Source of the DNA: Arthrobacter castelli DSM 16402
GTDB taxonomy: Bacteria > Actinomycetota > Actinomycetes > Actinomycetales > Micrococcaceae
DNA length: 64,000 nt
Assembly: GCF_000430705.1 (NCBI RefSeq)
Contig: NZ_AUMN01000005.1
Coordinates: forward strand, 124,001-188,000
Direction: 5' to 3'
The translations under genes and the position numbers were made by a program. Positions 7,199-60,060 of this stretch are shown here, one piece after another. Within the stretch, counting starts at the first letter, position 1; the number at the start of each line of letters is the position of its first letter. Below the pieces are notes generated by a model. The model was not told where the DNA came from. It saw only the letters and a program-made list of their open reading frames with translations, and ran no database searches.

Positions 7199-10100
7199 GT
7201 CCGGCAATTCAGAACTACCTCACCGACCGCGGGCCGGGCAGCGGCCAACGGCTTCCGGCCAGGTCCCAGCTGGACTCGGACGCGCCGCGGCTGTCGTTGA
7301 ATGGCCAGTGGCGGTTCCGGCTGCTGGATCATGCGCCCGGGCTGAGCTACGGGACGCTGGACCGCGGGGGAAGCGGCGTGGCAGGAGACGCGGACACTGA
7401 GGGGCCCGACGACGTCGGCGCCGTCGCCTTTGACGACTCCGGGTGGGAGCACATCCAGGTGCCCGGACACTGGGTACTGCAGGGCGACGGCCAGTGGGGG
7501 CAGCCCATCTACACCAACGTCCGCTACCCCTTCCCGGTGGATCCGCCCCATGTGCCGGACGAGAACCCGACCGGCGACTACCGGCGTCGCTTTGACGTTC
7601 CCGGCGACTGGGCCACCGCAGAACGGGTGGTGCTGCGTTTCGACGGGGTGGAGTCGACCTACCGGGTCTGGCTCAACGGCCGGGAAGTCGGGGTCGGAAA
7701 AGGCAGCCGGCTGGTGCAGGAATTCGACGTCACCGACGACGTCGCACCCGGGGAGAATCTCATCGTGGTCCGCGTGCACCAATGGTCGGACGCGAGCTAC
7801 CTCGAAGACCAGGACCAGTGGTGGCTGCCCGGGATCTTCCGCGACGTCACCCTCGAGGCCCGGCCGCACGGCGGGCTCGACGACGTCTGGCTGAGCACCG
7901 GCTACCGGGACGGGCAGGGGCTGCTGTCGCCCGAAATCACCGCCGGTGAGCACGCGTACCCGGTGACCCTGCGGGTGCCGGAACTTGGGATCGAACAGAC
8001 GTGGCAGCGGCCCGGCGACGTCGAGCCCGTCAGCATTGGGCACGTGGAACCGTGGACTGCCGATACCCCGCGGCTGTACGAGGCGGAGGTGGCTTCGTCC
8101 GCCGAAACGGTGAAACTGCGGGTGGGTTTCCGCACTGTCGAGATCATCGGCGACCGGTTCCTGGTCAATGGCCGGCGGGTGGTGTTCCACGGCGTGAACC
8201 GGCACGAGGCGCACCCGGACCGGGGGCGGGTGTTCGACGAGCAGCATGCCCGGGCGGACCTGTGCCGGATGAAGCAGTTCAACGTCAACGCCATCCGCAC
8301 CAGCCACTATCCGCCCCACCCGAAGCTGCTCGACCTGGCCGACGAAATCGGGTTCTGGGTGATCGACGAATGCGACCTGGAAACCCACGGCTTCGAGGCG
8401 AACGGGTGGATCGACAACCCCAGCGACGACCCCGCCTGGCGCGAGGCGTATATCGACCGGATCGAACGCACTATCGAGCGGGACAAGAACCACCCCAGCA
8501 TCATCATGTGGTCGCTGGGCAACGAATCCGGCACCGGGATGAACCTGGCCGCGGCCTCCGGCTGGGCGCACCAGCGTGACCCGGAACGGCCGGTGCATTA
8601 CGAAGGCGACTACACCGGAGCGTACACCGACGTCTACTCGCGGATGTACTCCTCCGTGCCGGAAACGGAATCGATCGGCCGGGATGACTCCTCCGAACTG
8701 CTGCTGGCCTGCAATGCGGCCGAGTCGGCACGGCAGCGCAGCAAGCCCTTCATCCTCTGCGAATACGCCCACGCCATGGGCAACGGTCCCGGCGGCCTGG
8801 ACCAGTACGAGGACCTGGTCCACCGGTATCCGCGGCTGCACGGCGGGTTCGTCTGGGAATGGCGCGACCACGGCATTCGCACCACCACGCGTGAGGGGAC
8901 CGAGTACTTCGGCTACGGCGGAGACTTCGGCGAGGTGCTGCACGACGGGAACTTCGTGATGGACGGGCTGGTGCTCAGCGATGACACGCCGTCACCCGGT
9001 TTGCACGAGTTCAAGGCCGTCGTGCAGCCGGTCCGCTTCGAATTCGGCGACGCCTCGGTGCTGATCACCAACGAACAGCACAGTGCCGACACCTCCCATC
9101 TGGTGTTCCGCTGGACGCTGGAGTACGACGGTGATGCAGCCGACGGCGGTGAACTTGACGTCGCTTCGGGCAAGCCGGCGGCAGGGGAGAGCTCCCGGGT
9201 GGAACTTCCCGCGTTCCAGCCGGCCGATAACGCCGAAAGCTGGCTCACCCTCACGGCGGAGCTGCGCGAAGATACGGCCTGGGCGCCGAAAGGGCACGTG
9301 GTGGCATCGGCGCAACGCGACGTCACCCATCCTGCTGTGCGGATGCGGCTTGTCACGCCGGCGCGGCCCGCCGTCGTCGAGCAGACCGCCGGCGGCCGCA
9401 ACCCCGGCGTCGACCGCAGCGCTGCCGGCGCTATGGTTCCCGGACCGGCATCGGGTCGGCTGGAACCCTCCAACGGGACTCTGCAGCTGGGACCGGCAAC
9501 GTTCGACGGCGGCAGGCTCACCGAGCTGGGTGGCGTGCCTGTGAAGGGCCCCCGCCTGCAGCTGTGGCGCGCACCCATTGATAATGACCGCCGATCCGCC
9601 TTTGGCAGCTACCACCGCATCGATCCGAGGGCTGACCTCGGACACGGGCACCCGGAACCGTCGCTGGAAGAACAGTGGCGCGCCGCCGGGCTGGATCGCC
9701 TGGAGCACCGCGTGGACAGCGTCGAGGCAAGCCCCACGCAGCTGCGCACCCGGATCCGGTCCGGTGCTGCCAGCGAGGCCCGGGCTGTGTGGACGCAAAC
9801 CACCTGGACGCTGGTGGACAGCCCCGGTTCGGATGAGCCGGAGTTGCTGCTGCGGATCGAGATGATGCCAACGACCGGGTGGGACATCCTGTGGCCGCGG
9901 CTCGGTGTCCGATTCGACCTGCCCTCGACGATATCGGGAGCCGATTGGTTCGGCACCGGCCCGCATGAGTCTTACCCGGACAGCAGGAACGCGGCCGGCA
10001 CCGGCCGGTTCCAGGCCGGCATCGAGGAACTCACCTTCGGCTACGCACGGCCGCAGGAAAGCGGACACCGCAGTGACATGCGATGGCTCCGGCTGCTGGA

Positions 10101-10374
10101 CGAAGGCAAGCCACGGATGGATCTCATCGCGCAGCGCGACACCTCCGGCAGGCTCCCCGGCTTCACCCTCGCCCGCAACACCGCCGAGGACATGGCCACG
10201 GCCGGACACCAGCATGAACTCCCTGCCAGCGCGCACACCTATTTATACCTGGACGCCGCCCAGCACGGAGTCGGCAGCCGCGCCTGCGGGCCGGACGTGT
10301 GGCCGGACTTCGCGCTGTCGCCGGTGGCCCGCAACCTCGAGTTCCGCGTCGCGTTCCCTTCCGGGTTGGAGTAA
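7195..10374 (+). CDS. lacZ: Beta-galactosidase, glycoside hydrolase family 2
   Basis: The 1059-residue enzyme has the full LacZ architecture: an N-terminal jelly-roll (SLNGQWRFRLLD onward), Ig-like domain, TIM barrel and C-terminal small-chain domain. The barrel carries NRHEAHPDRGRVFDE, the acid/base in WSLGNESG (Glu444) and the nucleophile in ILCEYAHAMGNGPG (Glu523). It hydrolyses terminal beta-galactosides, here probably in the cytoplasm because no signal peptide is present. Its ATG overlaps the permease stop (ATGA), so it is the last gene of the import operon. The size matches E. coli LacZ (about 1024 residues) with small insertions. Confidence 0.95.
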   Translation: MSPAIQNYLTDRGPGSGQRLPARSQLDSDAPRLSLNGQWRFRLLDHAPGLSYGTLDRGGSGVAGDADTEGPDDVGAVAFDDSGWEHIQVPGHWVLQGDGQWGQPIYTNVRYPFPVDPPHVPDENPTGDYRRRFDVPGDWATAERVVLRFDGVESTYRVWLNGREVGVGKGSRLVQEFDVTDDVAPGENLIVVRVHQWSDASYLEDQDQWWLPGIFRDVTLEARPHGGLDDVWLSTGYRDGQGLLSPEITAGEHAYPVTLRVPELGIEQTWQRPGDVEPVSIGHVEPWTADTPRLYEAEVASSAETVKLRVGFRTVEIIGDRFLVNGRRVVFHGVNRHEAHPDRGRVFDEQHARADLCRMKQFNVNAIRTSHYPPHPKLLDLADEIGFWVIDECDLETHGFEANGWIDNPSDDPAWREAYIDRIERTIERDKNHPSIIMWSLGNESGTGMNLAAASGWAHQRDPERPVHYEGDYTGAYTDVYSRMYSSVPETESIGRDDSSELLLACNAAESARQRSKPFILCEYAHAMGNGPGGLDQYEDLVHRYPRLHGGFVWEWRDHGIRTTTREGTEYFGYGGDFGEVLHDGNFVMDGLVLSDDTPSPGLHEFKAVVQPVRFEFGDASVLITNEQHSADTSHLVFRWTLEYDGDAADGGELDVASGKPAAGESSRVELPAFQPADNAESWLTLTAELREDTAWAPKGHVVASAQRDVTHPAVRMRLVTPARPAVVEQTAGGRNPGVDRSAAGAMVPGPASGRLEPSNGTLQLGPATFDGGRLTELGGVPVKGPRLQLWRAPIDNDRRSAFGSYHRIDPRADLGHGHPEPSLEEQWRAAGLDRLEHRVDSVEASPTQLRTRIRSGAASEARAVWTQTTWTLVDSPGSDEPELLLRIEMMPTTGWDILWPRLGVRFDLPSTISGADWFGTGPHESYPDSRNAAGTGRFQAGIEELTFGYARPQESGHRSDMRWLRLLDEGKPRMDLIAQRDTSGRLPGFTLARNTAEDMATAGHQHELPASAHTYLYLDAAQHGVGSRACGPDVWPDFALSPVARNLEFRVAFPSGLE

Positions 10375-10452
10375 TCGCCGAAGGGACTTCCCCGGCGAAC
10401 TCGGATAGACTTGGTGGTTGCCTTACTGGCTGCATGAGGGTACGGAGGAGCG

Positions 10453-10929
10453 ATGTTCAGGCCCGGTGCGCCGATCGATGAGATTGAGCGCGATGTCGAG
10501 TCAATTATCGTTGAGCTGGTCCACGAGTTGGGTACGTTGGCCGATGACGATCCCGTTGAGCATGGTGCGGACGAACGTGCATATATAAAGGCATTCTCGG
10601 ATGTTCGTGCGAACAGCGATAAGGATCAGGCTGCGCTGCTGACTGCCGCAGTAAACAGGCCAAACCTGGCCGAATCCCTGCTGTATTTGAACCGCTGGCT
10701 GGATGGTGCCGTCCGTCCGTCCAGGAAGTCCTCGCGGGCGATGCGAATTCTGGTGCGTCTGGCGATGGACGGGTTGTGGGTCAGCGACATCCTGGATCCC
10801 ACCCGGTTCACCGCCGCGCAGCGGGACCGGTTGACGGACATCCTTGTTGCGCTGACCTATCTCACTGATGAACAGGTGGATGGGCTCACGGGTGGAAGCG
10901 TTCCGGAAAGGGAAGTGGCTGCCGTGTAG
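10453..10929 (+). CDS. TetR C-terminal-domain-like protein lacking the DNA-binding domain
   Basis: The 158-residue protein contains ALLTAAVNRPNLAESLLYLN and RAMRILVRLAMDGLWVSDIL, wording like the ligand-binding half of TetR regulators (aLLaaV..P.L, A..vrLa.DGLW). No helix-turn-helix precedes it. The ATG at 10453 has a good GGAGG six bases upstream, and the 78 bases before it do not encode an HTH. It could be a truncated regulator, a dominant-negative partner or a small-molecule-binding protein. A perfect 14-bp-stem terminator follows. Confidence 0.55.
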   Translation: MFRPGAPIDEIERDVESIIVELVHELGTLADDDPVEHGADERAYIKAFSDVRANSDKDQAALLTAAVNRPNLAESLLYLNRWLDGAVRPSRKSSRAMRILVRLAMDGLWVSDILDPTRFTAAQRDRLTDILVALTYLTDEQVDGLTGGSVPEREVAAV

Positions 10930-10952
10930 GCCAGCGGCGGTGAAAGACCTTG

Positions 10953-10985
10953 AAAGACGGCGGCGCTTTGGGCGCCGCCGTCTTT
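10953..10985. terminator. Bidirectional rho-independent terminator
   Basis: A perfect 14-bp stem (AAAGACGGCGGCGC / GCGCCGCCGTCTTT) closes a five-base loop. The A-run and T-run at the two ends let it work in both directions, ending the TetR-like gene on the + strand and the 48-residue basic protein gene on the - strand. Confidence 0.9.
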
Positions 10986-11021
10986 ACAGCTGGGTGTTTT
11001 TTTAAGTTTCTTTCGGGTCGA

Positions 11022-11168
11022 TCAGGACTTGCGCGCCTTGCGGGGTTTCGTGAACTCCGGATCACTTGACGCAGACTTCGCCTTTTTGTCGGCTCTTTTT
11101 TCCAGAATGGACTTTCCGGTCTTTTTAGAGTTGGAACCACGTGGAGATTTTCCAGACAACTCGATCAC
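11022..11168 (-). CDS. Small basic conserved hypothetical protein (48 aa)
   Basis: The 48-residue, Lys/Arg/Ser-rich protein contains GKSPRGSNSKKTGKSILEKR and ends KPRKARKS. Short proteins with this wording are widespread in Micrococcales and related actinobacteria and have no assigned function; the charge suggests nucleic-acid or ribosome association. I use the GTG at 11168, with AAAGG five bases upstream; a TTG nine bases further in is possible. The gene converges on the TetR-like gene across a shared terminator. Confidence 0.7.
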   Translation of the reverse strand: MIELSGKSPRGSNSKKTGKSILEKRADKKAKSASSDPEFTKPRKARKS

Positions 11169-49184: not shown

Positions 49185-50354
49185 TCAGTCGCCCTTGCAG
49201 TTCACGAACTGACGAAGCGTGTGCTTGACCTCGACCAGGTCCGCCGCGTCGACCATCACCTGGTCGATGTCCTTGTAAGCGGCGGGGAGTTCGTCGATGA
49301 AGGCGTTGGTGTCCCGGTATTCGATCCCTTTCATCGCTTCGCGAAGCTGGTCCTGGGAGAAGTTTTTACGGGCCTGGTTCCGGCTGAACTGACGACCGGC
49401 GCCGTGCGGTGAGCTGTGGAGGCTTTCAACGTTCCCGCGGCCTTCGACGACGTAGCTGGCGGTTCCCATGGATCCGGGGATGATGCCTTTCATCCCCTCG
49501 CGGGCCTCGATGGCACCCTTGCGGCTAACCCACACGTCCTTGCCGGCATGGTGCTCCAGCTGGGTGAAGTTGTGATGGCAGTTTATGCGCTCACGTTCGA
49601 CGACGGTTGCGCCGGTCCACTTCTCGAAGGCGGCTACGACGCGGTCCATCATTTCCTCGCGGTTCAGCAGCGCGAAGTGCTGGGCCCAATTGAGTTCGCG
49701 GATGTAGTGGTCGAACTGCGGCGTCCCCTCGGCCAGGTAGGCCAGATTCCGGTCCGGCAGCTCGATGCCTTGGCCCCGGCAGAGGTGCTGCGCGACCTCG
49801 ATGTGCCGCTGCGCGATCTTGTTACCGACGCCACGGGAACCGGAATGCAGGAAGAGCCAGACGTCGTCGTTCTCATCGACGGACGCTTCGATGAAGTGAT
49901 TGCCGGACCCGAGGGTGCCGAGTTGCAGCTTCCACTTCGCGGTGTAATTGTCGGGGACGAAGTTCGCTTCTTCTGCCCGTTCCTTCAGGTCCTGAATGCG
50001 GGTCCGAGCTGAGTCGGTCAGCTTCTTGTTGTTCGTCCCGGCCGACATGGGCACGCTGGCTTCGATCGCCCGGCGCAGGGTCCTGCGGTTCTACCCCTTG
50101 ATGCCCCGCGTGTTGAACTGGGTCTGCACGGCAATCATCCCGCAACCGATATCGACGCCGACGGCGGCCGGCATCACCGCCTCGAGGGTTGGGATCACCG
50201 AACCAACGGTGGCTCCCATGCCCAGGTGCGCATCGGGCATGAGTGCCAGGTGCGGATGGATGAACGGCATGGTGGACGCGAGAACCGCCTGCTCACGGGT
50301 CTTGTCATCCATGACCGACGCCCAATTCAGCAGCTTGTCGTTGATACGCTCCAT
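49185..50354 (-). pseudogene. rtcB: RNA ligase RtcB interrupted by one in-frame amber codon
   Basis: From ATG 50354 the frame reads MERINDKLLNWASVMDDKTR through PDAHLGMG and VGVDIGCGM (metal-binding Cys) to NTRGIKG, then a TAG at 50091-50093. After the TAG the same frame continues NRRTLRRAIEASVPMSAG and every later motif is intact: GSGNHFIE, HSGSRGVGN, NCHHN, PGSMGT, HGAGR with the guanylated His, and DTNAFIDELPAAYKDIDQVM. There is no other stop or frameshift over 1170 bases. RtcB joins 2',3'-cyclic phosphate and 5'-OH RNA ends. This is a single nonsense mutation, a readthrough site or a sequencing error. A restart at GTG 50054 would lack the metal-site Cys. Confidence 0.88.
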
Positions 50355-51273: not shown

Positions 51274-51325
51274 TGGTCCACCAAAATTCGAATTGGTACA
51301 CCAAAACTGTTGTCTGGTAGTACCA
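51274..51325 (+). promoter_or_regulatory. Three phased TGGT-ACCA operators before the TRAP operon
   Basis: TGGTCCACCA (51274-51283), TGGTACACCA (51294-51303) and TGGTAGTACCA (51315-51325) are palindromes whose centres are 20 and 21.5 bases apart, that is, about two helical turns each. TGGT-ACCA cores are typical targets of FadR/FCD-type GntR regulators. Such a gene closes the operon at 59329. They lie 128-179 bases before dctP. Confidence 0.65.
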
Positions 51326-51452: not shown

Positions 51453-52463
51453 ATGAAAGCGAAGTACATCATTCCGTTTTTCGCCAGCACTGCGCTGGTG
51501 CTCTCGGGCTGTTCAGGAGGAGGCGCAAATGCCGGTGCCGACGGTGAAAAAACCTACGAATGGGACATGACGATCACGGTCGGTGAGCAGTCCTCCTGGT
51601 ACAAGGGCGCGGAGAAGTTCGCCGAAGTGCTTGAAAAGAAGTCCGACGGCCGGATGCAGCTGAACATCTACACCAACGAGCAACTCTCCGGTGGCGACAC
51701 GGTCGCCAGCCTCGAACAACTGATCAATGGGGAGAAGGCGTTCTCGTACCACTCGACAATCATCTACGCGAGTATCGATGAGCGGTTCGGCGCCATAAAC
51801 GCGCCATTCCTGTATGAAAGCTATGAAGAAGCGGATGCGACGATCCAGGCCTCGGCTCTGGATGCGTACAAGAAGCTTGGCGACGATATCGGCGTCGAAG
51901 TACTCGGTTTCGGCGAGAGCGGATTCCGGCAGGTCACCAACAATGTGCGGCCCATCGACGAACCATCTGACCTGAAGGGCATCAAGATGCGGATTCCTGG
52001 CATCACGCTCTTCCAGGACATCTACCAGCAACTGAACGCCAACCCAGTGACGATGACCTTCTCGGAGGTCTTTACGGCCCTACAGCAGGGCACCATTGAC
52101 GGCCAGGTGAACCCTTTGGACGTGACGTACTCGTCCGGCCTCACCGAAGTGCTGGATTACATGACGATGTGGAACTACGTCTACGATCCTTTGATTCTCG
52201 GCATGAACGATGAATTGTATGAATCCCTTCCGGAGAAGGACCAGAAAATCGTTCAGCAGGCCGCAGAAGCAGCCAACGCTGTCCAGAAGGAGACAAACCG
52301 AAGCCGGGAAGAGAGCCAGTTGAAGGACATGAAGGAAAAGATGGAGGTCATCTCGTTGACGGATCAGCAGCGTGCCGCATTCCGGGAGGCTATGGCTCCG
52401 GTTTACGACAAGTACAACTCCATTTGGGGAGCAGAGCTCGCCGAAGCCGTTCAGCCGAAGTGA
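51453..52463 (+). CDS. dctP: TRAP transporter substrate-binding lipoprotein (DctP family)
   Basis: The 336-residue protein has a lipoprotein signal (FFASTALVLSGCSGGG, Cys20) and the DctP fold with IYTNEQLSGGDTVASLEQLI and the signature GFGESGFRQVTNNVRPIDEP SDLKGIKMRI, where the Arg in KMRIPG usually clamps the substrate carboxylate. ALQQGTIDGQVNPLDVTYSS follows. It binds an organic acid at the cell surface for the DctQM permease. AAGGAG lies seven bases before the ATG. It is the first gene of an eight- or nine-gene cluster of catabolic type. Confidence 0.92.
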   Translation: MKAKYIIPFFASTALVLSGCSGGGANAGADGEKTYEWDMTITVGEQSSWYKGAEKFAEVLEKKSDGRMQLNIYTNEQLSGGDTVASLEQLINGEKAFSYHSTIIYASIDERFGAINAPFLYESYEEADATIQASALDAYKKLGDDIGVEVLGFGESGFRQVTNNVRPIDEPSDLKGIKMRIPGITLFQDIYQQLNANPVTMTFSEVFTALQQGTIDGQVNPLDVTYSSGLTEVLDYMTMWNYVYDPLILGMNDELYESLPEKDQKIVQQAAEAANAVQKETNRSREESQLKDMKEKMEVISLTDQQRAAFREAMAPVYDKYNSIWGAELAEAVQPK

Positions 52464-52470
52464 TCCGGTT

Positions 52471-52971
52471 GTGAAACGGATGCAGGCGCTCGACGCAGTC
52501 GAAAACACGTTAGCTGTAGCGGCATTCAGCATCGTCAGTGTTGTCGCATTCTCGAATGTGCTGTCCCGGTATATATTTAACGCTTCGCTGGCCTTGACCA
52601 CTGAGCTGACCGTCAATCTGGCCGTCCTGCTGACCATGGTGGGAGCGGCGATCGGGATTCGGGAGGGCAGCCACCTCGGCTTCACCCTGCTGCGGGACAA
52701 GGCGACCGGACGGACACATCAAGTGATCGTCGTCGCGGCGGGCCTGGCTATCGTGCTGTTCTACGTGGCCTTGTTCAAGTTTGGTCTCGACATTTCCCTG
52801 GACCAGTTCCGTCGGCAGCAGACAACGCCCGCATTGGGGTTGCCCATGGGATTGCTGACGGCGGTGGTTCCACTGGGGGCAGTTCTCGGAGTCATCCGGG
52901 TTGTCCAAGTAACTATTACCGGTGTCCGTGAAGCGCCTCAGCGCCGGGTCGTTTCAAGAACGGAGGGATGA
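52471..52971 (+). CDS. dctQ: TRAP transporter small permease (DctQ family)
   Basis: The 166-residue protein has four membrane spans, starting TLAVAAFSIVSVVAFSNVLS RYIF, with ALTTELTVNLAVLLTMVGAA and IGIREGSHLGFTLL typical of DctQ. I use the GTG at 52471, seven bases after the dctP stop; the ATG at 52480 is possible. It pairs with DctM to move a substrate with Na+. Confidence 0.85.
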   Translation: MKRMQALDAVENTLAVAAFSIVSVVAFSNVLSRYIFNASLALTTELTVNLAVLLTMVGAAIGIREGSHLGFTLLRDKATGRTHQVIVVAAGLAIVLFYVALFKFGLDISLDQFRRQQTTPALGLPMGLLTAVVPLGAVLGVIRVVQVTITGVREAPQRRVVSRTEG

Positions 52972-52974
52972 GAA

Positions 52975-54405
52975 ATGGTTGAAGTCGTCCTGTTCGGGAC
53001 CTTCTTTGTGCTGCTGTTCCTCAGTGTTCCGGTCGCGTTCGCATTGGGATTGGCAGCCGTGGCGACGATGGTCTTCGTCGGCGGAATCGACAATCTGGCC
53101 GTGATGCCAAATGTCTTCTACTCGTCGCTGTCCTCTGCCACGCTGTTGGCCATCCCCTTCTTCATCCTGGCGGGCGTCATTATGGAGTACGCGGGCATCT
53201 CAAAGCGTCTCATCGACCTGGCAGACGCGTGTGTGGGTCACCGCAAGCATGGGCTGGCAATGGTCGTCATTATCGCGGCCTTCTTCTTTTCCGCAATCTC
53301 CGGCTCAGGTCCGGCGACTGTGGCGGCGATTGGTGCCATTCTCATTCCGGCCTTGGTCCGGAATGGTTATTTCAAACATCATGCCGCTGCGATGCTCGCC
53401 AGCGCCGGTTCGATGGGCATCATCATCCCTCCGAGCATCACGCTCATCATCTTCGGTGTGGTGGCCAGCGACTACGAGCGGGTCTCGATCGCGCGCCTCT
53501 TCATGGCAGGGGTGATTCCCGGCATCCTGATGGCCTTGGCGCTATACATCGCCGCACGGATGATCCCGCGTACCCAGGCGGCTCGTGCCCCGGCACCGGC
53601 CGCAGTGGGTGCACTCGACCGCAGCGGGGGAGGATCTTCAGGATTATCCGGCGGCAGCGGGGAACGCCTGCATCCGGGTGAGAAAGAGGAAATCGAAAAA
53701 CTGGCAGCCCACGGCGCCCAGCAGGCCGGACGTGCACCCCTCGGAGATATCGCCAAGAGGTTCGTCAACGCCATCCCGGGACTGCTGGTCCCCGTCATCA
53801 TCCTCGGCGGCATCTACGGTGGTGTCTTCACCCCCACAGAATCCGCAGTGGTGGCAGCTTTCTACGCACTGGCGGTGGGGCTGTTCTTCTACCGGGAAAT
53901 CAAACCGGGCTCCCTCGGCAAGATCTTCATCACCTCGGCCGTGCAGTCTTCGGTGGTGATGATCATTGTGGGATGCGCATCGATCTTCGCCTACGTCATT
54001 ACCTCTGAACGGGTTGCCCAGCATGTGTCGGACGCAATCCTGGGCATTACCGACAATCGCGTGGTCATTATGATCCTGGTGCTGGTGCTGCTGCTTATTG
54101 CCGGGGCCTTTATCGATGCGATCTCAGCGCTGTTCCTGTTCATCCCGATCTTCGTGCCGATCCTGCTGTCCCTGGGATACGACATCACCACCATCGGCGT
54201 GATGATGACAGTGAACCTGGCCATCGGCCTGATTACACCACCGGTCGGGGTCAACCTCTTCGTCGCCGCCGGCATTGCGAAGACTCCATTGACGGGCGTC
54301 TCCAAGGGGGCTGTTCCATTCCTCATTGCGGCCCTCACAGTGCTGCTGCTGATTGCCTTCATTCCGGGCCTGTCCAACTGGCTGCCGGATCTGCTGGGCA
54401 TGTAG
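52975..54405 (+). CDS. dctM: TRAP transporter large permease (DctM family) with an extended central loop
   Basis: The 476-residue protein shows DctM motifs LLAIPFFILAGVIMEYAGIS KRL, ISGSGPATVAAIGAILIPAL, GSMGIIIPPSITLIIFGVVA and NLAIGLITPPVGVNLFVAAG. It is about 50 residues longer than usual because of a hydrophilic insert at residues 198-255, rich in Ala/Gly/Ser (PAPAAVGALDRSGGGSSGLS) and then charged (HPGEKEEIEKLAAHGAQQAG), between the two transport halves. The start lies three bases after the dctQ stop. Confidence 0.92.
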   Translation: MVEVVLFGTFFVLLFLSVPVAFALGLAAVATMVFVGGIDNLAVMPNVFYSSLSSATLLAIPFFILAGVIMEYAGISKRLIDLADACVGHRKHGLAMVVIIAAFFFSAISGSGPATVAAIGAILIPALVRNGYFKHHAAAMLASAGSMGIIIPPSITLIIFGVVASDYERVSIARLFMAGVIPGILMALALYIAARMIPRTQAARAPAPAAVGALDRSGGGSSGLSGGSGERLHPGEKEEIEKLAAHGAQQAGRAPLGDIAKRFVNAIPGLLVPVIILGGIYGGVFTPTESAVVAAFYALAVGLFFYREIKPGSLGKIFITSAVQSSVVMIIVGCASIFAYVITSERVAQHVSDAILGITDNRVVIMILVLVLLLIAGAFIDAISALFLFIPIFVPILLSLGYDITTIGVMMTVNLAIGLITPPVGVNLFVAAGIAKTPLTGVSKGAVPFLIAALTVLLLIAFIPGLSNWLPDLLGM

Positions 54406-54433
54406 TCCTCCAAGCAGAAAGAGAGAACTCACT

Positions 54434-55198
54434 ATGACTGAACAACTGACCGGACTGGTCTCGCTGGTTACCGGTGCCGCCCAGGGAATCGGGGCGGAGA
54501 TTGCCCACAGCCTCGCAGACCGAGGCGCCGCCGTCGTCTTGGTCGATATCCAGGAACCAACAGAAGTCGTGGCTAAGATCCGGGAGAACCTCCCGGCAGC
54601 GCGAGTGGAAGGACGTGCTGTCGATGTCCGCGACGAGTCCGCGGTGAAGGAAGCCGTTGGCTGGACGGTTTCCACTTTCGGCCGGATCGACGTCGTGGTT
54701 AATAACGCCGGCACCTGCGCCCGCCTCGGACTGGACGAGATGACAGGAGAAATGTGGCAGCGCGATCTGGACACCAACCTGAAGGGCACTTTCCTGTTCA
54801 CCCGGCACGCTATCCACCCGCATATGGCGGCCCAAGGGACAGGATCGATTGTCAACGTCAGCTCGATCTCCGGGATCATGGGCGGCCCGCTGTCGTCTGG
54901 AGAAGATGCAAGTCGTTCAGGTCCGGCCTACGCCGCGTCGAAGGGCGGAGTCATTGCACTCACCAAGTGGGTGGCCAAAGAAGTCGGGCATCTGGGCATT
55001 ACGTGTAATTCCGTCGCGCCGGGACCGGTCGAGACGCCGATGACAAGCTCGGTCGCCTATGACTTCAGCAATCAACCCATCAAACGAATGGGCACTCCCG
55101 CCGATATCGCCGAAGCGGTGGCGTATCTGGCCTCTCCCGGCGCCTCCTTTGTCACCGGGCAAGTGCTGAAGGTGTGTGGCGGATCGGCCATCGGATAG
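54434..55198 (+). CDS. Short-chain dehydrogenase/reductase (FabG/acetoin reductase-like)
   Basis: The 254-residue SDR has SLVTGAAQGIGAEIAHSLAD, VVNNAGTCARLGLDEM, NVSSISGIMGGPLSS and PAYAASKGGVIALTKWVAKE with the Ser-Tyr-Lys triad, then APGPVETPMTSS. It oxidises a hydroxy group or reduces a carbonyl with NAD(P). It follows the TRAP genes by 28 bases and is probably the first catabolic step after import. The exact substrate is unknown. Confidence 0.88.
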   Translation: MTEQLTGLVSLVTGAAQGIGAEIAHSLADRGAAVVLVDIQEPTEVVAKIRENLPAARVEGRAVDVRDESAVKEAVGWTVSTFGRIDVVVNNAGTCARLGLDEMTGEMWQRDLDTNLKGTFLFTRHAIHPHMAAQGTGSIVNVSSISGIMGGPLSSGEDASRSGPAYAASKGGVIALTKWVAKEVGHLGITCNSVAPGPVETPMTSSVAYDFSNQPIKRMGTPADIAEAVAYLASPGASFVTGQVLKVCGGSAIG

Positions 55199-55218
55199 CG
55201 GCGTCGAAAGGACAACCA

Positions 55219-56172
55219 ATGCACATTACCCATCCCGGGCCACAGCATGAGAGCCGGTTGCAGTCGGTCAAGGGCACATCCACGACGACGATCGGGCAAC
55301 TGCCCGGTGGCGGACGGCTGCTGGACGAACTCCATGAGCTGTTGGCGGCCGGGGGATACCGGTCCGGAATCGCCGAATTGCTGGGCGGGACGCTGGACCC
55401 GATCGATTACTGCGTTCCGGCCGAAGGCCGGTCCGGACGAAGCGTCAGCTACAGCGAAAGCCGCACGTCCGGACCGGGCGAGGTGATTTTTGGAACGGCC
55501 GTGCTTGGGCGGCGTGATGGCAAGCCGTTCATGCATTGCCACTGTATTTGGCGTACATCCGGCGGCGGCTTGGCCGCTGGACATCTGTGGCCGGAGACGC
55601 TTACCAGCGCCCCGGCGCCGTCCGTCGCCTTGATCGGTCTGGACGGTATCGAACTGACAAGCTCCGATTGCGAGGAGACGCTCCTTCCTGTTTTCACCCC
55701 TCAAACCGGAGATGGAGGAGAAACGATGGAATCCGATACGGCACACCCCGCCCATCGGACTGTCATGGCCAGAGTGTTGCCCAACGAGGACATCACACAG
55801 GCCGTGGAACGGATCTGCAATGACAACGAGTTCGCCACGGCGATTGTCCGTGGCGGCACGGGCAGCCTGGTCGGTGCGGTATTCGAGCCTCACCACGGTG
55901 GGCCGCCAACCCGGGTGGACGGTCCCGCCACCGAAGTGGTCACACTGGTCGGCCACTATGCACTGGACGAGCGAGGCCGGCCCGGCGTGCATTTGAGCTG
56001 CTCACTGGTGGACAAGTACGGAAACGTGCACGCCGGAAGGCTGATCCCCGGAGCAAACCAGGTATCAGTCACTTTCGAACTCGTGGTTCAGGAAATCGAT
56101 CCCACGAACCTCCCGGCCGAAGCCGGGCACCCTGCAGCGTCTACAGACGCGACACATCAAAAGGAGAAGTAG
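55219..56172 (+). CDS. Tandem PPC/DUF296 domain protein
   Basis: The 317-residue protein appears to hold two PPC (DUF296) domains. The first (about 20-165) carries FMHCHCIWRTSGGGLAAGHL, a His-x-His plus later His arrangement that binds metal in bacterial PPC proteins, then GIELTSSDCEETLLPVF. The second (about 175-300) carries TAIVRGGTGSLVGAVFEP and GVHLSCSLVDKYGNVHAGRL then IPGANQVSVTFELVV. There is no AT-hook, unlike plant PPC proteins. Function is unknown; its place between an SDR and lipoyl/E1 genes suggests a metabolic role. GAAAGGA lies six bases before the ATG. Confidence 0.75.
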   Translation: MHITHPGPQHESRLQSVKGTSTTTIGQLPGGGRLLDELHELLAAGGYRSGIAELLGGTLDPIDYCVPAEGRSGRSVSYSESRTSGPGEVIFGTAVLGRRDGKPFMHCHCIWRTSGGGLAAGHLWPETLTSAPAPSVALIGLDGIELTSSDCEETLLPVFTPQTGDGGETMESDTAHPAHRTVMARVLPNEDITQAVERICNDNEFATAIVRGGTGSLVGAVFEPHHGGPPTRVDGPATEVVTLVGHYALDERGRPGVHLSCSLVDKYGNVHAGRLIPGANQVSVTFELVVQEIDPTNLPAEAGHPAASTDATHQKEK

Positions 56173-56400
56173 ATGAATATCTTTCTTACCGCAGAAACCC
56201 TGGGGGAGGAAACAGAAGCAGACCTCGTCGATTGGCTCGTCAGCGACGGCGCAAGCGTGGCGCAAGGCGAAGCCTTGTGCCAGATCGAAACATCAAAAAC
56301 CACCAGCGAGTTTGAGGCTCCGGCCAGCGGACGAATCACCCTGCACGCCGAAGAAGGCGATGTGGTTGAGCTCGACACCGTCATCGCGGTCATCGAGTAA
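56173..56400 (+). CDS. Free-standing lipoyl (biotinyl/lipoyl) domain protein
   Basis: The 75-residue protein is a single lipoyl domain: ADLVDWLVSDGASVAQGEAL, the hairpin with ETSKTTSEFEAPASGRI (acceptor Lys42) and the closing EEGDVVELDTVIAVIE. Lipoyl domains are usually part of an E2 acyltransferase chain; here only the domain is made. It directly follows the PPC gene and precedes the E1 alpha gene by 10 bases. AAGGAGAAGTAG precedes the ATG. It may carry acyl groups from E1 to an enzyme encoded elsewhere. Biotinylation is less likely, as the motif is ETSK rather than MKM. Confidence 0.85.
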   Translation: MNIFLTAETLGEETEADLVDWLVSDGASVAQGEALCQIETSKTTSEFEAPASGRITLHAEEGDVVELDTVIAVIE

Positions 56401-56410
56401 AGGAGGAGCT

Positions 56411-57391
56411 GTGCAGGAATTCGATCAAAGACGGCAGGGGCTGTCGGGCCTGAAGACAATGGCAATGATCCGTGCGTTCGAAAGCCGGATGCCGGTGCTG
56501 TCCGAAGAGCGGTTAATCCGCGGTTCCACCCACCCGTCAGCGGGTATGGAAGCTGTAGCCACGGGTGTTTCGCTCGCACTGGGGCCTCAAGACTCGATTG
56601 CGTCCAACCACCGCGGCCATGCACACTGCCTCGCCCGCGGCTCCGACCCCGGCCGCACCATGGCCGAGATTCTCGGACGCCGCGACGGATACGGCGGAGG
56701 CAAGGGCGGGTCGATGCACATCGGCGTTGCTGAACTTGGCATCCTCGGCACCAACGGAATCGTCGGTGCCGGGATCGGATTGGCAACCGGCGCCGCCCTG
56801 GCAGCCCAGATGCAGGGCTCCGATGCGGTGTCCGTCGTCTATTTCGGCGACGGCGCTGCCAACCAGGGTGTGTTGGCCGAAGCTCTTAATCTGGCGGCGA
56901 TTTGGAAGCTTCCGGTGCTGTTCGTCTGCGAAAACAACCACTACGCGCAGTCGGCTTCGATCGAGGAAATGATTGCCCAACCGGATCTCAAGCAACGGGG
57001 GCTGGCGTACGGAGTCCCGTCTGTCGACGTCGACGGCATGAGCTTGGGGGACACTTTCACTGCCGCGGCCGAAGGCGTGGAGCGGGCGCGAAGTGGTTCC
57101 GGCCCGACGCTTATCATCGCCGACACCTATCGCTACCTCGGGCACATGGCCGGGGACACCGAGATCTACCGAAACCAGGTCGAAGTGGAGCAGTGGCAGG
57201 CTAAAGACCCGATCGCGCGCCTGGTCTCACAACTGCTGGAGGCAGGGGTCATAACGACCTCGGACTGGGAAGACATTCAGGAGGAAGCGTCCCGGGTCGT
57301 GCAGGAGGCTGAAGAGTTCGCGCGGAATTCGCCATTCCCCGATGCCTCTGACGCCACGCAAGACGTCTACTCGAAGGGAGTGCCGGCATGA
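56411..57391 (+). CDS. 2-oxoacid/acetoin dehydrogenase E1 component, alpha subunit
   Basis: The 326-residue ThDP enzyme subunit has HPSAGMEAVATGVSLALGP, GYGGGKGGSMHIGVAELGIL GTNGIVGAGIG and the ThDP motif GDGAANQGVLAEALNLAAIW ending in VCENNHYAQS. GRRDGYGGGKGGSMH is close to acetoin (AcoA) and pyruvate E1 alpha. It decarboxylates or cleaves the substrate and passes the acyl group to a lipoyl domain. The start is GTG at 56411 with AGGAGG ahead. The gene overlaps E1 beta by four bases (ATGA). Confidence 0.9.
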   Translation: MQEFDQRRQGLSGLKTMAMIRAFESRMPVLSEERLIRGSTHPSAGMEAVATGVSLALGPQDSIASNHRGHAHCLARGSDPGRTMAEILGRRDGYGGGKGGSMHIGVAELGILGTNGIVGAGIGLATGAALAAQMQGSDAVSVVYFGDGAANQGVLAEALNLAAIWKLPVLFVCENNHYAQSASIEEMIAQPDLKQRGLAYGVPSVDVDGMSLGDTFTAAAEGVERARSGSGPTLIIADTYRYLGHMAGDTEIYRNQVEVEQWQAKDPIARLVSQLLEAGVITTSDWEDIQEEASRVVQEAEEFARNSPFPDASDATQDVYSKGVPA

Positions 57392-58386
57392 CCACCAAGA
57401 ACTTGACGACCTGGCGGGCGCTGAACACCGCGCTCAAGGACATTCTGCAGGAGACCCCGGAGTCGCTTGTGATGGGTGAAGACATCACAACGTGGGGCAC
57501 CGGGGGTGGAATCTACGGCGTCACCCGGAAGCTCTTCGACGAATTCGGAGCGGAGCGGGTTCGGGATACACCGATCTCTGAAGAAGTGTTGATCTCCACG
57601 GCCGTAGGTGCCGCGATGCGGGGCAGCAGGCCGATCCTGGAGATCATGTACTCCGACTTCACCCTCCTCGGCTTTGACGGAATCATCAACCAGGCAGCGA
57701 AGAGCCGGTACATGTTCGGCGGTCAGTTCGACTGTCCACTGGTCATCCGCACCAACGGCGGCTCAGGCGTTGGCAAGGCGGGCCAGCATTCACAGTCGTT
57801 GGAGACGCTGTTCGCCCATATTCCGGGGCTGGAGGTTGCGGTTCCGGCGACACCAGCGGACGCGTACGGGTTGCTGCGCACCGCGGAGAGGAGCAGCAAC
57901 CCCACCATCTTCCTCGAACACAAGAATCTGTACTACGACAAGGGAGCCGTGGACTTCGAGCCAGTCCCATTCGGCCGGGCAAGGGTCGCCAGGGAGGGCA
58001 CTGATCTCACGGTGGTGGCAACGCAGCAAATGCTGACCCGTTCGCTTGCTGCGGCGGAAAGGTTGCAGGCGGAGCATGGGATCAATGCCGAAGTCATCGA
58101 TCCACGCACTCTCTATCCGTTCGATATGGAAACGGTGTTGGGTTCAGTCCGGAAAACCCGGCATCTCATGGTGGCCCATGAAGCAGTCCGCGACTACGGA
58201 TGGGGCGCGGAAGTCTCGTCGTCCGTCGTCGAACAGGCCTGGGAAGAACTCGATGCTCCACCGGTACGGCTGGGAAGTGCACGCACGCCCATTCCATACA
58301 GTGAACCGTTGGAGAGCGCAGTAGTGCCCGGCGTCGATGAAATTCTCACCGCGATGCGGAAGGTCCGCACCGCCATAGCGGCGTAG
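57388..58386 (+). CDS. 2-oxoacid/acetoin dehydrogenase E1 component, beta subunit
   Basis: The 332-residue subunit has LVMGEDITTWGTGGGIYGVT, RVRDTPISEEVLISTAVGAA, SDFTLLGFDGIINQAAKSRY and GGSGVGKAGQHSQSLETLFA HIPGLEV, all typical of PdhB/AcoB transketolase-type subunits. It completes the E1 heterotetramer with the alpha subunit, to which it is coupled by ATGA overlap. A large hairpin follows the stop, and neither E2 nor E3 genes come next. Confidence 0.92.
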   Translation: MTTKNLTTWRALNTALKDILQETPESLVMGEDITTWGTGGGIYGVTRKLFDEFGAERVRDTPISEEVLISTAVGAAMRGSRPILEIMYSDFTLLGFDGIINQAAKSRYMFGGQFDCPLVIRTNGGSGVGKAGQHSQSLETLFAHIPGLEVAVPATPADAYGLLRTAERSSNPTIFLEHKNLYYDKGAVDFEPVPFGRARVAREGTDLTVVATQQMLTRSLAAAERLQAEHGINAEVIDPRTLYPFDMETVLGSVRKTRHLMVAHEAVRDYGWGAEVSSSVVEQAWEELDAPPVRLGSARTPIPYSEPLESAVVPGVDEILTAMRKVRTAIAA

Positions 58387-58397
58387 CAATAAGTGTT

Positions 58398-58443
58398 GCG
58401 GGCCTCGTTCCAATGCGGCAGACCACATTGGGACGAGGCCCGC
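58398..58443 (+). terminator. Large hairpin between E1 beta and the second SDR
   Basis: Two 18-base arms (58398-58415 and 58426-58443) pair with a single G-T wobble around a 10-base loop. The right arm ends about 20 bases before the next gene. It may terminate or attenuate transcription, or protect the E1 mRNA from 3' decay. Confidence 0.7.
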
Positions 58444-58463
58444 GATGACGAGTAAGGAGGGTC

Positions 58464-59279
58464 ATGGGACAGAGGATGGCGGGCAAGACCGTCCTGCTAT
58501 TCGGCGGAGGATCGCGATCCGGCGCCACCAATAATGGGATCGCAGCGGCTCTGACCTACGCCCGGGAAGACGCCGCGGTATTCATCGTCGACAACGACGC
58601 CGTTGCTCTTCAGGACGGTCTCACCCGGCTGAGGGCAGAACAACCTTCCGCGAGGACCAATGGGACAAAAGCGGACGTCACCGACAGCTCCGCCATCAAG
58701 GCTGCCGTAGAGGCGTGCGCCGCCGACGTCGGAACACCCGATGTGTTGCACAACAACGTCGGAATTGCGCCAATGGGCGGGCCTCTGGAGATGACGGAGG
58801 AGGAATGGGACAAGGTTATGTCGGCGAACCTGTCCAGCGCTTTTCTCACCACCAAACATGTGTTGCCGTACCTGCTGGAGACCGGCGGCGCCATCGTCAA
58901 CATCGCATCGATCGGAGGAATCAGGCACCTGGGCTACAACTATCCCGGATATGCGGCATCCAAGGCAGGGCTGATCCAGTTCACCCGGAATATTGCTGTG
59001 GAATACGCAAACCGCGGAGTGCGGGCCAATTGCGTGGCGCCGGGTTTTATCGAAACCCCGATGATGTACCAGCAGATTGCGGAAAACTACGACTCAGTTG
59101 AACAAATGCGCCGGATGCGGAACAGGGCCAGCCCAACCGGTGCCATGGGCGACTCGTTCGACGTGGCCAATGCAGCATTATTCCTCGCCTCCGACGAAGC
59201 CAAGTACATCAATGGGGTGTGCCTGCCGGTCGACGGGGGACTGATACATTCAGTTCCAAACGCCAGCCAGGCGTTGTAG
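58464..59279 (+). CDS. Short-chain dehydrogenase/reductase with altered nucleotide loop
   Basis: The 271-residue SDR has the active-site parts IASIGGIRHLGYNYPGYAAS KAGL (Ser, Tyr, Lys) and APGFIETPMMYQQI. The cofactor loop reads LLFGGGSRSGATNNGIAAAL, where the usual TGxxxGIG is stretched, and the NNAG motif is HNNVGIAPMG. This variant is known in some bacterial SDRs acting on ring or polyol substrates. GGAGG lies six bases before the ATG. Together with the first SDR it may interconvert hydroxy and oxo forms of the TRAP substrate. Confidence 0.85.
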   Translation: MGQRMAGKTVLLFGGGSRSGATNNGIAAALTYAREDAAVFIVDNDAVALQDGLTRLRAEQPSARTNGTKADVTDSSAIKAAVEACAADVGTPDVLHNNVGIAPMGGPLEMTEEEWDKVMSANLSSAFLTTKHVLPYLLETGGAIVNIASIGGIRHLGYNYPGYAASKAGLIQFTRNIAVEYANRGVRANCVAPGFIETPMMYQQIAENYDSVEQMRRMRNRASPTGAMGDSFDVANAALFLASDEAKYINGVCLPVDGGLIHSVPNASQAL

Positions 59280-59283
59280 ATGG

Positions 59284-59301
59284 CATTGGTTCATGCCAAT
59301 G
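59284..59301 (+). promoter_or_regulatory. Palindrome before the GntR gene
   Basis: Perfect arms CATTGG and CCAATG with a six-base spacer lie 28-45 bases before the GntR start, just after the SDR stop. It could be an operator for autoregulation, though it differs from the TGGT-ACCA sites before dctP. Confidence 0.35.
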
Positions 59302-59328
59302 ACTGCGGCGTCACTGACGGGAGGTCTA

Positions 59329-60060
59329 ATGACGATGAGTGGACAAGATGGCACTGAACTAATCCCGGGCAAGGATCCCATCACCCATGCCCTGGTCAAG
59401 CAGATTAAGGATATGAAACCGGGCGACAGGTTACTGAGCGAGCGTGAGCTGGCCGAAGACCTGGGGGTCAGCCGTACTGCCCTGCGTGACCGGGTGGGCA
59501 GGCTTCAATCGATGGGAATACTGGAGCGCCGCGGCCGCGCGGGGACCTTTGTCGTAGGGCTGCGGCCGGAGACGATCAGTGAGGTTCTGATGCTCGGGCT
59601 CATGGCTTCCGATCTGACAGTTGAATCTATTGTTACGGTTCGAGTCGCCCTCGAGCGACAAGCGGCAATCGAAGCTGCCGGCAGCCACGACCATGTCAGC
59701 ATCGCTCACATGGCCGTGGCGGTCGACTCGATGGAAGCCACCGACGACGGCGAACGGCTGCGGCAGGCGGACTTGGACTTCCACCAGGCGCTGTTTGAGG
59801 CATCCGGGTCAAAAGCCCTGCAATTCTTCTCCCAGGTGCTGTCCCAGGTACTTGCCGAAACCATCCAGAGTTTGAGCTTGAGCAAGGATCGACTGACTAT
59901 GCGCAAGGTTCACCGCGACATACTGGAGGCTGTCCAGGCACAAGACCACGATGCCGTTCTCGCCGCCATCGATCAGCACTTCGAATGGCTGGATGTACTC
60001 CTTGCCGAAAATAAATCGGGCGGGGAATCGGGGGCGGAGAATGTGGCGCCGGCGAGCTAG
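59329..60060 (+). CDS. GntR family regulator (FadR/FCD subfamily)
   Basis: The 243-residue protein has the GntR winged HTH (DRLLSERELAEDLGVSRTAL RDRVGRLQSMGILERRGRAG) and the helical FCD ligand domain, with a metal-binding DLDFHQALFEASG motif and a later DQHFEW. FCD domains bind organic acids. It closes the TRAP/E1 cluster and is the likely regulator acting on the three TGGT-ACCA sites before dctP. I use the ATG at 59329 with GGGAGG five bases ahead; an in-frame ATG at 59293 lacks a ribosome site. Confidence 0.9.
   Translation: MTMSGQDGTELIPGKDPITHALVKQIKDMKPGDRLLSERELAEDLGVSRTALRDRVGRLQSMGILERRGRAGTFVVGLRPETISEVLMLGLMASDLTVESIVTVRVALERQAAIEAAGSHDHVSIAHMAVAVDSMEATDDGERLRQADLDFHQALFEASGSKALQFFSQVLSQVLAETIQSLSLSKDRLTMRKVHRDILEAVQAQDHDAVLAAIDQHFEWLDVLLAENKSGGESGAENVAPAS

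Follow-up and report, generated by a model that had tools for sequence, protein, structure and literature searches.

The closest described relatives of the system analyzed here come from two directions. The acetoin dehydrogenase complex is encoded by the gene set AcoABCL, and in actinobacteria an OdhA-type E2, the acyltransferase component, borrows the lipoyl domain of another E2. On the other side, acetolactate decarboxylase (ALDC) and PTD012 both take CO2 off 2-hydroxy-3-oxo acids. PTD012 (C11orf54) is described as a beta-ketogulonate decarboxylase that holds zinc on three histidines, has a fold related to that of ALDC, and acts downstream of a dehydrogenase in its pathway (PMC12435205). We examined a 64,000-nucleotide stretch of the Arthrobacter castelli DSM 16402 genome (contig NZ_AUMN01000005.1, positions 124,001 to 188,000; hereafter the window), in which elements resembling both directions stand together in one operon (51453-60060): a transporter of the tripartite ATP-independent periplasmic (TRAP) type, two short-chain dehydrogenases/reductases (SDR1 and SDR2), a protein with two PPC/DUF296 domains (the tandem PPC), a lone lipoyl-domain protein, and both chains of a thiamine pyrophosphate (TPP)-dependent E1. 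We tentatively read it as an operon for the breakdown of a hydroxylated organic acid, in which SDR action, decarboxylation by the tandem PPC, and acyloin cleavage by E1 would be completed by E2 and E3 in trans; we consider this reading possible, short of probable.

All ten genes of the operon lie on the plus strand and have intact frames. The TRAP genes dctP (solute-binding lipoprotein, 51453..52463; PF03480, 4.2e-75), dctQ (small permease, 52471..52971; PF04290), and dctM (large permease, 52975..54405; PF06808, 1.7e-107) are followed by SDR1 (54434..55198), the tandem PPC gene (55219..56172), the gene of the 75-residue lipoyl protein (56173..56400; PF00364, 9.8e-14), E1 alpha (56411..57391), E1 beta (57388..58386), SDR2 (58464..59279), and a GntR/FCD regulator (59293..60060; PF00392, PF07729). 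Pfam and NCBIfam assigned the families DctP, DctQ, DctM, SDR (twice), PCC, Biotin_lipoyl, E1_dh, Transket_pyr/Transketolase_C, and GntR with FCD, and the E1 chains were also assigned by alignment. With starts at GTG 56411 for E1 alpha, ATG 54434 for SDR1, and GTG 52471 or ATG 52480 for dctQ, neighboring genes overlap by 4 nt or are separated by at most 28 nt, the exception being a 77-nt gap between E1 beta and SDR2. An earlier note, made from the letters of this DNA alone, had described this tightly packed gene set on one strand from dctPQM to GntR, the lipoyl protein with a Lys42, and the lack of a linked E2 or E3, and in all of this it was borne out. Lys42 (codon 56296-56298) lies in the string ETSKTT and is the predicted lipoyl lysine. 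Neither the list of open reading frames (ORFs) nor the Pfam/NCBIfam scan revealed an E2 or E3 gene within the cluster, nor an acyl-CoA synthetase or thiolase gene.

The operon probably imports and degrades an organic acid. From its gene content we infer a route in which the TRAP system would import a hydroxylated organic acid and SDR1, SDR2, or both would oxidize it, giving a 2-hydroxy-3-oxo (beta-keto) acid. As a putative zinc enzyme of the ALDC/PTD012 fold group, the tandem PPC would decarboxylate this compound to an acyloin (alpha-hydroxyketone). The two E1 chains with TPP may then cleave the acyloin in the manner of acetoin dehydrogenase, giving an aldehyde and an acyl group on the lone, presumably lipoylated, carrier, and an unlinked E2 and E3 would complete the transfer to coenzyme A and the reoxidation. 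The lipoyl-E1 module would occupy the place that an ATP-using acyl-CoA synthetase, often together with a thiolase, has in related clusters.

This reading draws on the neighborhoods of the tandem PPC in other genomes. The search for the protein covered 396 genomes from the order of the host, two of its genus, and 346 drawn from its phylum, as well as plasmids and genome contigs. In the order it was encoded by 21 of the 396 genomes, namely the host and 20 genomes of one other genus, and the host alone had it among the two genomes of the genus and among the 346 of the phylum. Loci were compared from 19 of the 20 genomes of the other genus (G252, on a short contig, was omitted) and from alphaproteobacteria, the latter being the best 80 of 169 genome stretches encoding tandem-PPC relatives, with some loci on short contigs. 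A synthetase, TRAP genes, and an SDR were found together near the tandem PPC in 17 of the 19 loci of the other genus, 16 of these 17 also having a thiolase, and in 56 of the 80 alphaproteobacterial loci. The remaining alphaproteobacterial loci were nine with a synthetase without the full set, three with TRAP or SDR genes without a synthetase, nine phosphonate operons, and three with none of these; a thiolase was present in 25 of the 65 synthetase-bearing ones. In the nine phosphonate loci (L064, L072, L077, L080, L084, L092, L096, L103, and L116) the tandem-PPC gene stands at the end of a C-P lyase operon, next to phn genes, DUF1045, and, in some of them, a gene that looks phnN-like by eye. 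Tandem-PPC relatives were encoded by 64 plasmid records, and four of the six regions read (L009-L012) contained the set of TRAP, thiolase, synthetase, and SDR genes. In the two remaining loci of the other genus (L051 and L053) the PPC protein was matched only in part and the cluster was missing, as if decayed.

The shared genes are also alike in sequence. SDR1 has 58-61% identity to its counterparts in the other genus (17 clusters, all of the synthetase type), most identities between SDR2 and the SDRs from other clusters with a tandem PPC are 42-54% (with one split match of 33/52%, in L048), and the window DctP is 36-39% identical to its equivalents in 11 tandem-PPC loci of alphaproteobacteria. 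On the other hand, tblastn gave no lipoyl match near the tandem PPC in any of the 99 loci (80 alphaproteobacterial and 19 of the other genus), and an E1 match in two of them (L101 and L111, both among the 80), roughly 5-7 kb away from the tandem PPC. A neighborhood search had been proposed in the earlier note; its outcome was that PPC, TRAP, and SDR genes are widely found together, whereas the combination of PPC, lipoyl, and E1 genes occurred in no other locus examined in the order, the genus, the phylum, the plasmids, or the genome contigs. When the synthetase of the other genus was compared with the whole host genome, the top match was at 36%. Judged from gene content, the conserved core is thus made up of the TRAP system, the SDRs, and the tandem PPC. 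Since this core is conserved, the relatives' loci gave no lipoyl match, and the host genome has no close equivalent of the synthetase, the lipoyl-E1 module appears to be the exchanged part and seems to replace the synthetase (and thiolase) of the conserved pathway.

The same counts bear on the suggestion of the earlier note that the PPC protein is the partner to which the lipoyl carrier passes its acyl group. In its favor, the PPC and lipoyl genes abut with zero gap, but the tandem PPC is conserved across 99 loci of which none gave a lipoyl match and two an E1 match. This part of the note was not supported, and we regard the PPC protein as a very improbable acyl acceptor.

The modeled structure of the protein suggests an enzyme. 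Pfam recognized PPC/DUF296 (PF03479) in the C-domain only (4e-20), while the N-domain was detected with a profile of alignment A1 against AF0104 (2h6l) and by a fold match to the same structure (Z 11.5, model residues 13-161). The N-domain (about residues 13-165) has the motif H106-x-H108...H122, which the C-domain (about 180-290) lacks. In a 66-row alignment (A3; the window protein and those of 65 of the 80 alphaproteobacterial loci, 15 being omitted to limit size), H106, H108, H122, E153, E197, and E239 were invariant in all rows, and the three histidines were also kept in four A1 rows of the other genus that had been found without a pattern search. The structural model made from this alignment (pLDDT 90.4, pTM 0.89) was closest to the solved PPC proteins 2dt4, 2h6l, and 2hx0 (Z 10.7-11.7, mainly over the N-domain). 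Next came nine entries for ALDC or proteins like it at Z 5.0-6.1, weak matches under Z 8, below which, as the tool itself warns, a match may reflect merely a common arrangement; the overlap of ALDC with the PPC N-domain was mainly its C-terminal half. PTD012 was likewise matched weakly, over 192 residues of both domains (Z 4.6, root-mean-square deviation (rmsd) 6.7), and all remaining matches were at Z 2.4 or less (2.4 and 2.1). The PPC profile gave no sequence match to acetolactate decarboxylase at E up to 10. SCOP groups PPC with ALDC and PTD012. By analogy, we infer that the tandem PPC may be a decarboxylase of the ALDC/PTD012 kind. In Roseomonas (L009, 9953-10892; checked with Pfam) and Agrobacterium (L010, 9953-10913) the annotation gives each PPC domain its own gene, the two genes lying side by side, which suggests that the domains act as a pair.

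In the records examined here, most bacterial PPC/DUF296 proteins were called DNA-binding or had no assignment, and the database family name would make the tandem PPC a DNA-binding regulator. Some of its relatives carry this annotation and the window protein has one RGRP string, a possible AT-hook (residues 252-255), but the string is missing from the eight other A1 rows and the cluster already has its GntR/FCD regulator. As the three conserved histidines and the fold neighbors also point to an enzyme, a regulatory role is disfavored and seems to us most improbable.

What kind of enzyme it would be is a different matter. The proteins of the phosphonate operons have Gln at position 5 in nine of nine rows, versus His in 40 of the 57 others, and their three histidines are identical to those of the rest. 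The tandem PPCs of the phosphonate operons and of the synthetase clusters without E1 may have a broader or different zinc chemistry. It is also possible, if slightly less so than the main reading, that the tandem PPC is another type of zinc enzyme, such as a C-C or ester/lactone hydrolase or an isomerase, that E1 and the lipoyl protein act on a 2-oxo acid made by the SDRs, and that E2 and E3 are shared from other complexes. An ordinary 2-oxo acid as the E1 substrate would agree with the best structural alignments of E1 alpha, which were to pyruvate dehydrogenase structures, but neither E1 chain reaches the cut-off that NCBIfam sets for E1 of pyruvate dehydrogenase. The literature on PTD012 cuts both ways: esterase activity on an artificial ester is also described, while the two fold relatives with a named activity are beta-keto acid decarboxylases (PMC12435205).

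The TPP-binding stretch and the active-site stretches are retained in both E1 chains, and E1 also has the GSTH and HSQ histidines. The best NCBIfam score of the lipoyl domain was to acetoin E2 (51 bits, far under the cut-off, which is set for a whole E2). The search for E1 alpha covered 297 genomes from the order, 396 from the phylum, and plasmids, where 40 of 342 records were listed, and none of the matches listed exceeded 49% identity; in a tree of 31 E1 alpha rows the placement of the window protein was unsure, with a long branch and a join marked unsafe. Of 20 E1 loci compared within the order, five (L172, L173, L175, L178, and L182) had a lipoyl match and no E2-catalytic match within 6 kb, two of them (L175 and L178) having an E2-like match about 6.5 kb away, and six, two of which were on contigs of about 7 kb, had neither; tblastn can overlook diverged E2s.

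The host genome itself has five E2 catalytic-domain matches, all outside the cluster, and six Pyr_redox_dim matches, which are not necessarily all E3. One of the E2 matches, on contig C15, lies together with an E1 in a frame of 1307 residues, without a lipoyl match. Moreover, a second operon without E2 was found in the host (C1:217-220 kb; about 7791-11140 of region L216, C1:208500-228000, minus strand), encoding E1 alpha, E1 beta, a lipoyl-only protein, and an alpha/beta-hydrolase. It adjoins a gene that looks by eye like an amino-acid permease. The lone lipoyl carrier without linked E2 and E3 that the earlier note had proposed is real, and with five E2 matches an acceptor encoded elsewhere is feasible. 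It is plausible that the lipoyl domains are used in trans.

E1 and the lipoyl protein could instead be a remnant or split complex of the acetoin type that is used loosely, the acyl group being lost by hydrolysis or passed to an AcoC-like alpha/beta-hydrolase encoded elsewhere. The hydrolase of the second operon, which partly resembles the hydrolase portion of NF011457, the acetoin E2 model (47 bits, cut-off 307), and the five loci of the order with a lipoyl gene and no nearby E2 are consistent with this. We nevertheless find it unlikely, as the window cluster contains no such hydrolase gene, its frames are intact, and its genes are tightly packed.

The transporter may offer a clue to the substrate. 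The TRAP binding protein of a Paracoccus cluster matched 4oan, listed as RPB_2686 of Rhodopseudomonas palustris HaA2, with 470 bits. The 4oan structure was reportedly modeled with 2-acetolactate. In a review, 2-acetolactate is named among the TRAP ligands from the binding-protein program behind 4oan (PMC5812351). The solved protein nearest to the window DctP was 4p8b (32% identity, Z 41.4), while 4oan gave Z 38.5; the matches listed for the DctP model named no ligand.

Several observations weigh against the route through an acyloin. The window DctP is only 29% identical to the 4oan-type protein and belongs to a different branch. The likeness of the PPC model to ALDC and PTD012 is weak (Z below 8; mainly the N-domain for ALDC and a high rmsd for PTD012), and the Foldseek E-values for the ALDC entries were 0.012-0.054. 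The constancy of H106 and C107 is partly built in, because one of the two search patterns contains both, while H108 and H122 are absent from that pattern. Nine of the 80 alphaproteobacterial tandem-PPC genes belong to operons for the phosphonate C-P lyase, a setting in which one would not expect a beta-keto acid, and in two of the six plasmid regions (L007 and L008) neither TRAP nor synthetase genes are annotated. Within the synthetase-type clusters no acyloin-cleaving E1 was seen, so the PPC product is handled otherwise there. As the window E1 is so isolated, its acetoin-type chemistry is only putative, and no single host E2 stands out as the partner of the lipoyl carrier. The wider proposal, that tandem PPCs form an unrecognized family of zinc decarboxylases for 2-hydroxy-3-oxo acids and that in this lineage their pathway swapped an ATP-using synthetase and thiolase for a TPP-lipoyl ending with a diffusible carrier serving the E2 and E3 of other complexes, is less likely than not.

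Upstream of dctP, a motif search revealed two operator-like copies of TGGTNNACCAAAA, 20 nt apart (51274..51306, plus strand), and a third, looser copy, TGGTAGTACCA, was noticed by reading at 51315-51325. These two are the only exact occurrences of TGGTNNACCA in the window, against 0.70 expected, and at least two were also present in 13 of 100 shuffles. Thus, it is the tandem placement before dctP, not the copy number, that makes the TGGTNNACCAAAA copies possible sites for the GntR/FCD regulator, this being an operator type of such regulators. Between E1 beta and SDR2, a strong stem-loop is predicted on the plus strand (58395..58446; -46 kcal/mol over an 86-nt stretch, z -6.8), in which no T-run was seen; it could be an attenuator or a stability element. 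Outside the operon, at 49185-50354 on the minus strand, two ORFs in different frames resemble fragments of one RtcB-like protein, possibly due to a frameshift or an assembly error.

In the open-access literature, we found no description of a catabolic tandem-PPC cluster that includes an E1-lipoyl module, nor of a pathway with this gene set, as the earlier note had also supposed. The cluster of tandem PPC, TRAP, and dehydrogenase genes occurs in numerous alphaproteobacteria as well as in some of the host's relatives, and the fold neighbors of known activity, which decarboxylate beta-keto acids, make the function of the protein directly testable. In addition, the swap of a whole terminal module, together with a lone lipoyl carrier that has no E2 of its own, offers a test of how far a lipoyl domain can reach in trans.

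Compared with the known systems, the host cluster resembles acetoin dehydrogenase in its E1 alpha and beta and in a lipoyl domain that scores best with acetoin E2 among the NCBIfam models, and differs from it by the absence of the E2 catalytic part, the alpha/beta-hydrolase, and E3, by its isolated E1, and by the addition of the TRAP system, the SDRs, and the PPC protein. The tandem PPC bears a weak fold resemblance to PTD012 and has three conserved histidines that may correspond to those of PTD012, the PPC activity being putative; its likeness to ALDC is mainly that of its N-domain to one half of the enzyme, with no match in sequence. The single-domain PPC/DUF296 proteins (2dt4, 2h6l, 2hx0) have the same fold, a likeness that Pfam and the profile extend to the C-domain; in contrast to them, the host protein has two domains per chain, the second without the three-His motif, and a catabolic neighborhood. 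LbpA of sulfur oxidation is, like the host carrier, a protein of a single lipoyl domain, and its own features are a resemblance to GcvH and linkage to hdr-like genes (PMC6067878). Finally, the OdhA type uses a lipoyl domain in trans, as the host may do, whose 1307-residue E2-E1 frame has no lipoyl match; in the OdhA case the lipoyl domain comes from another E2, while that of the operon is encoded by a separate gene.

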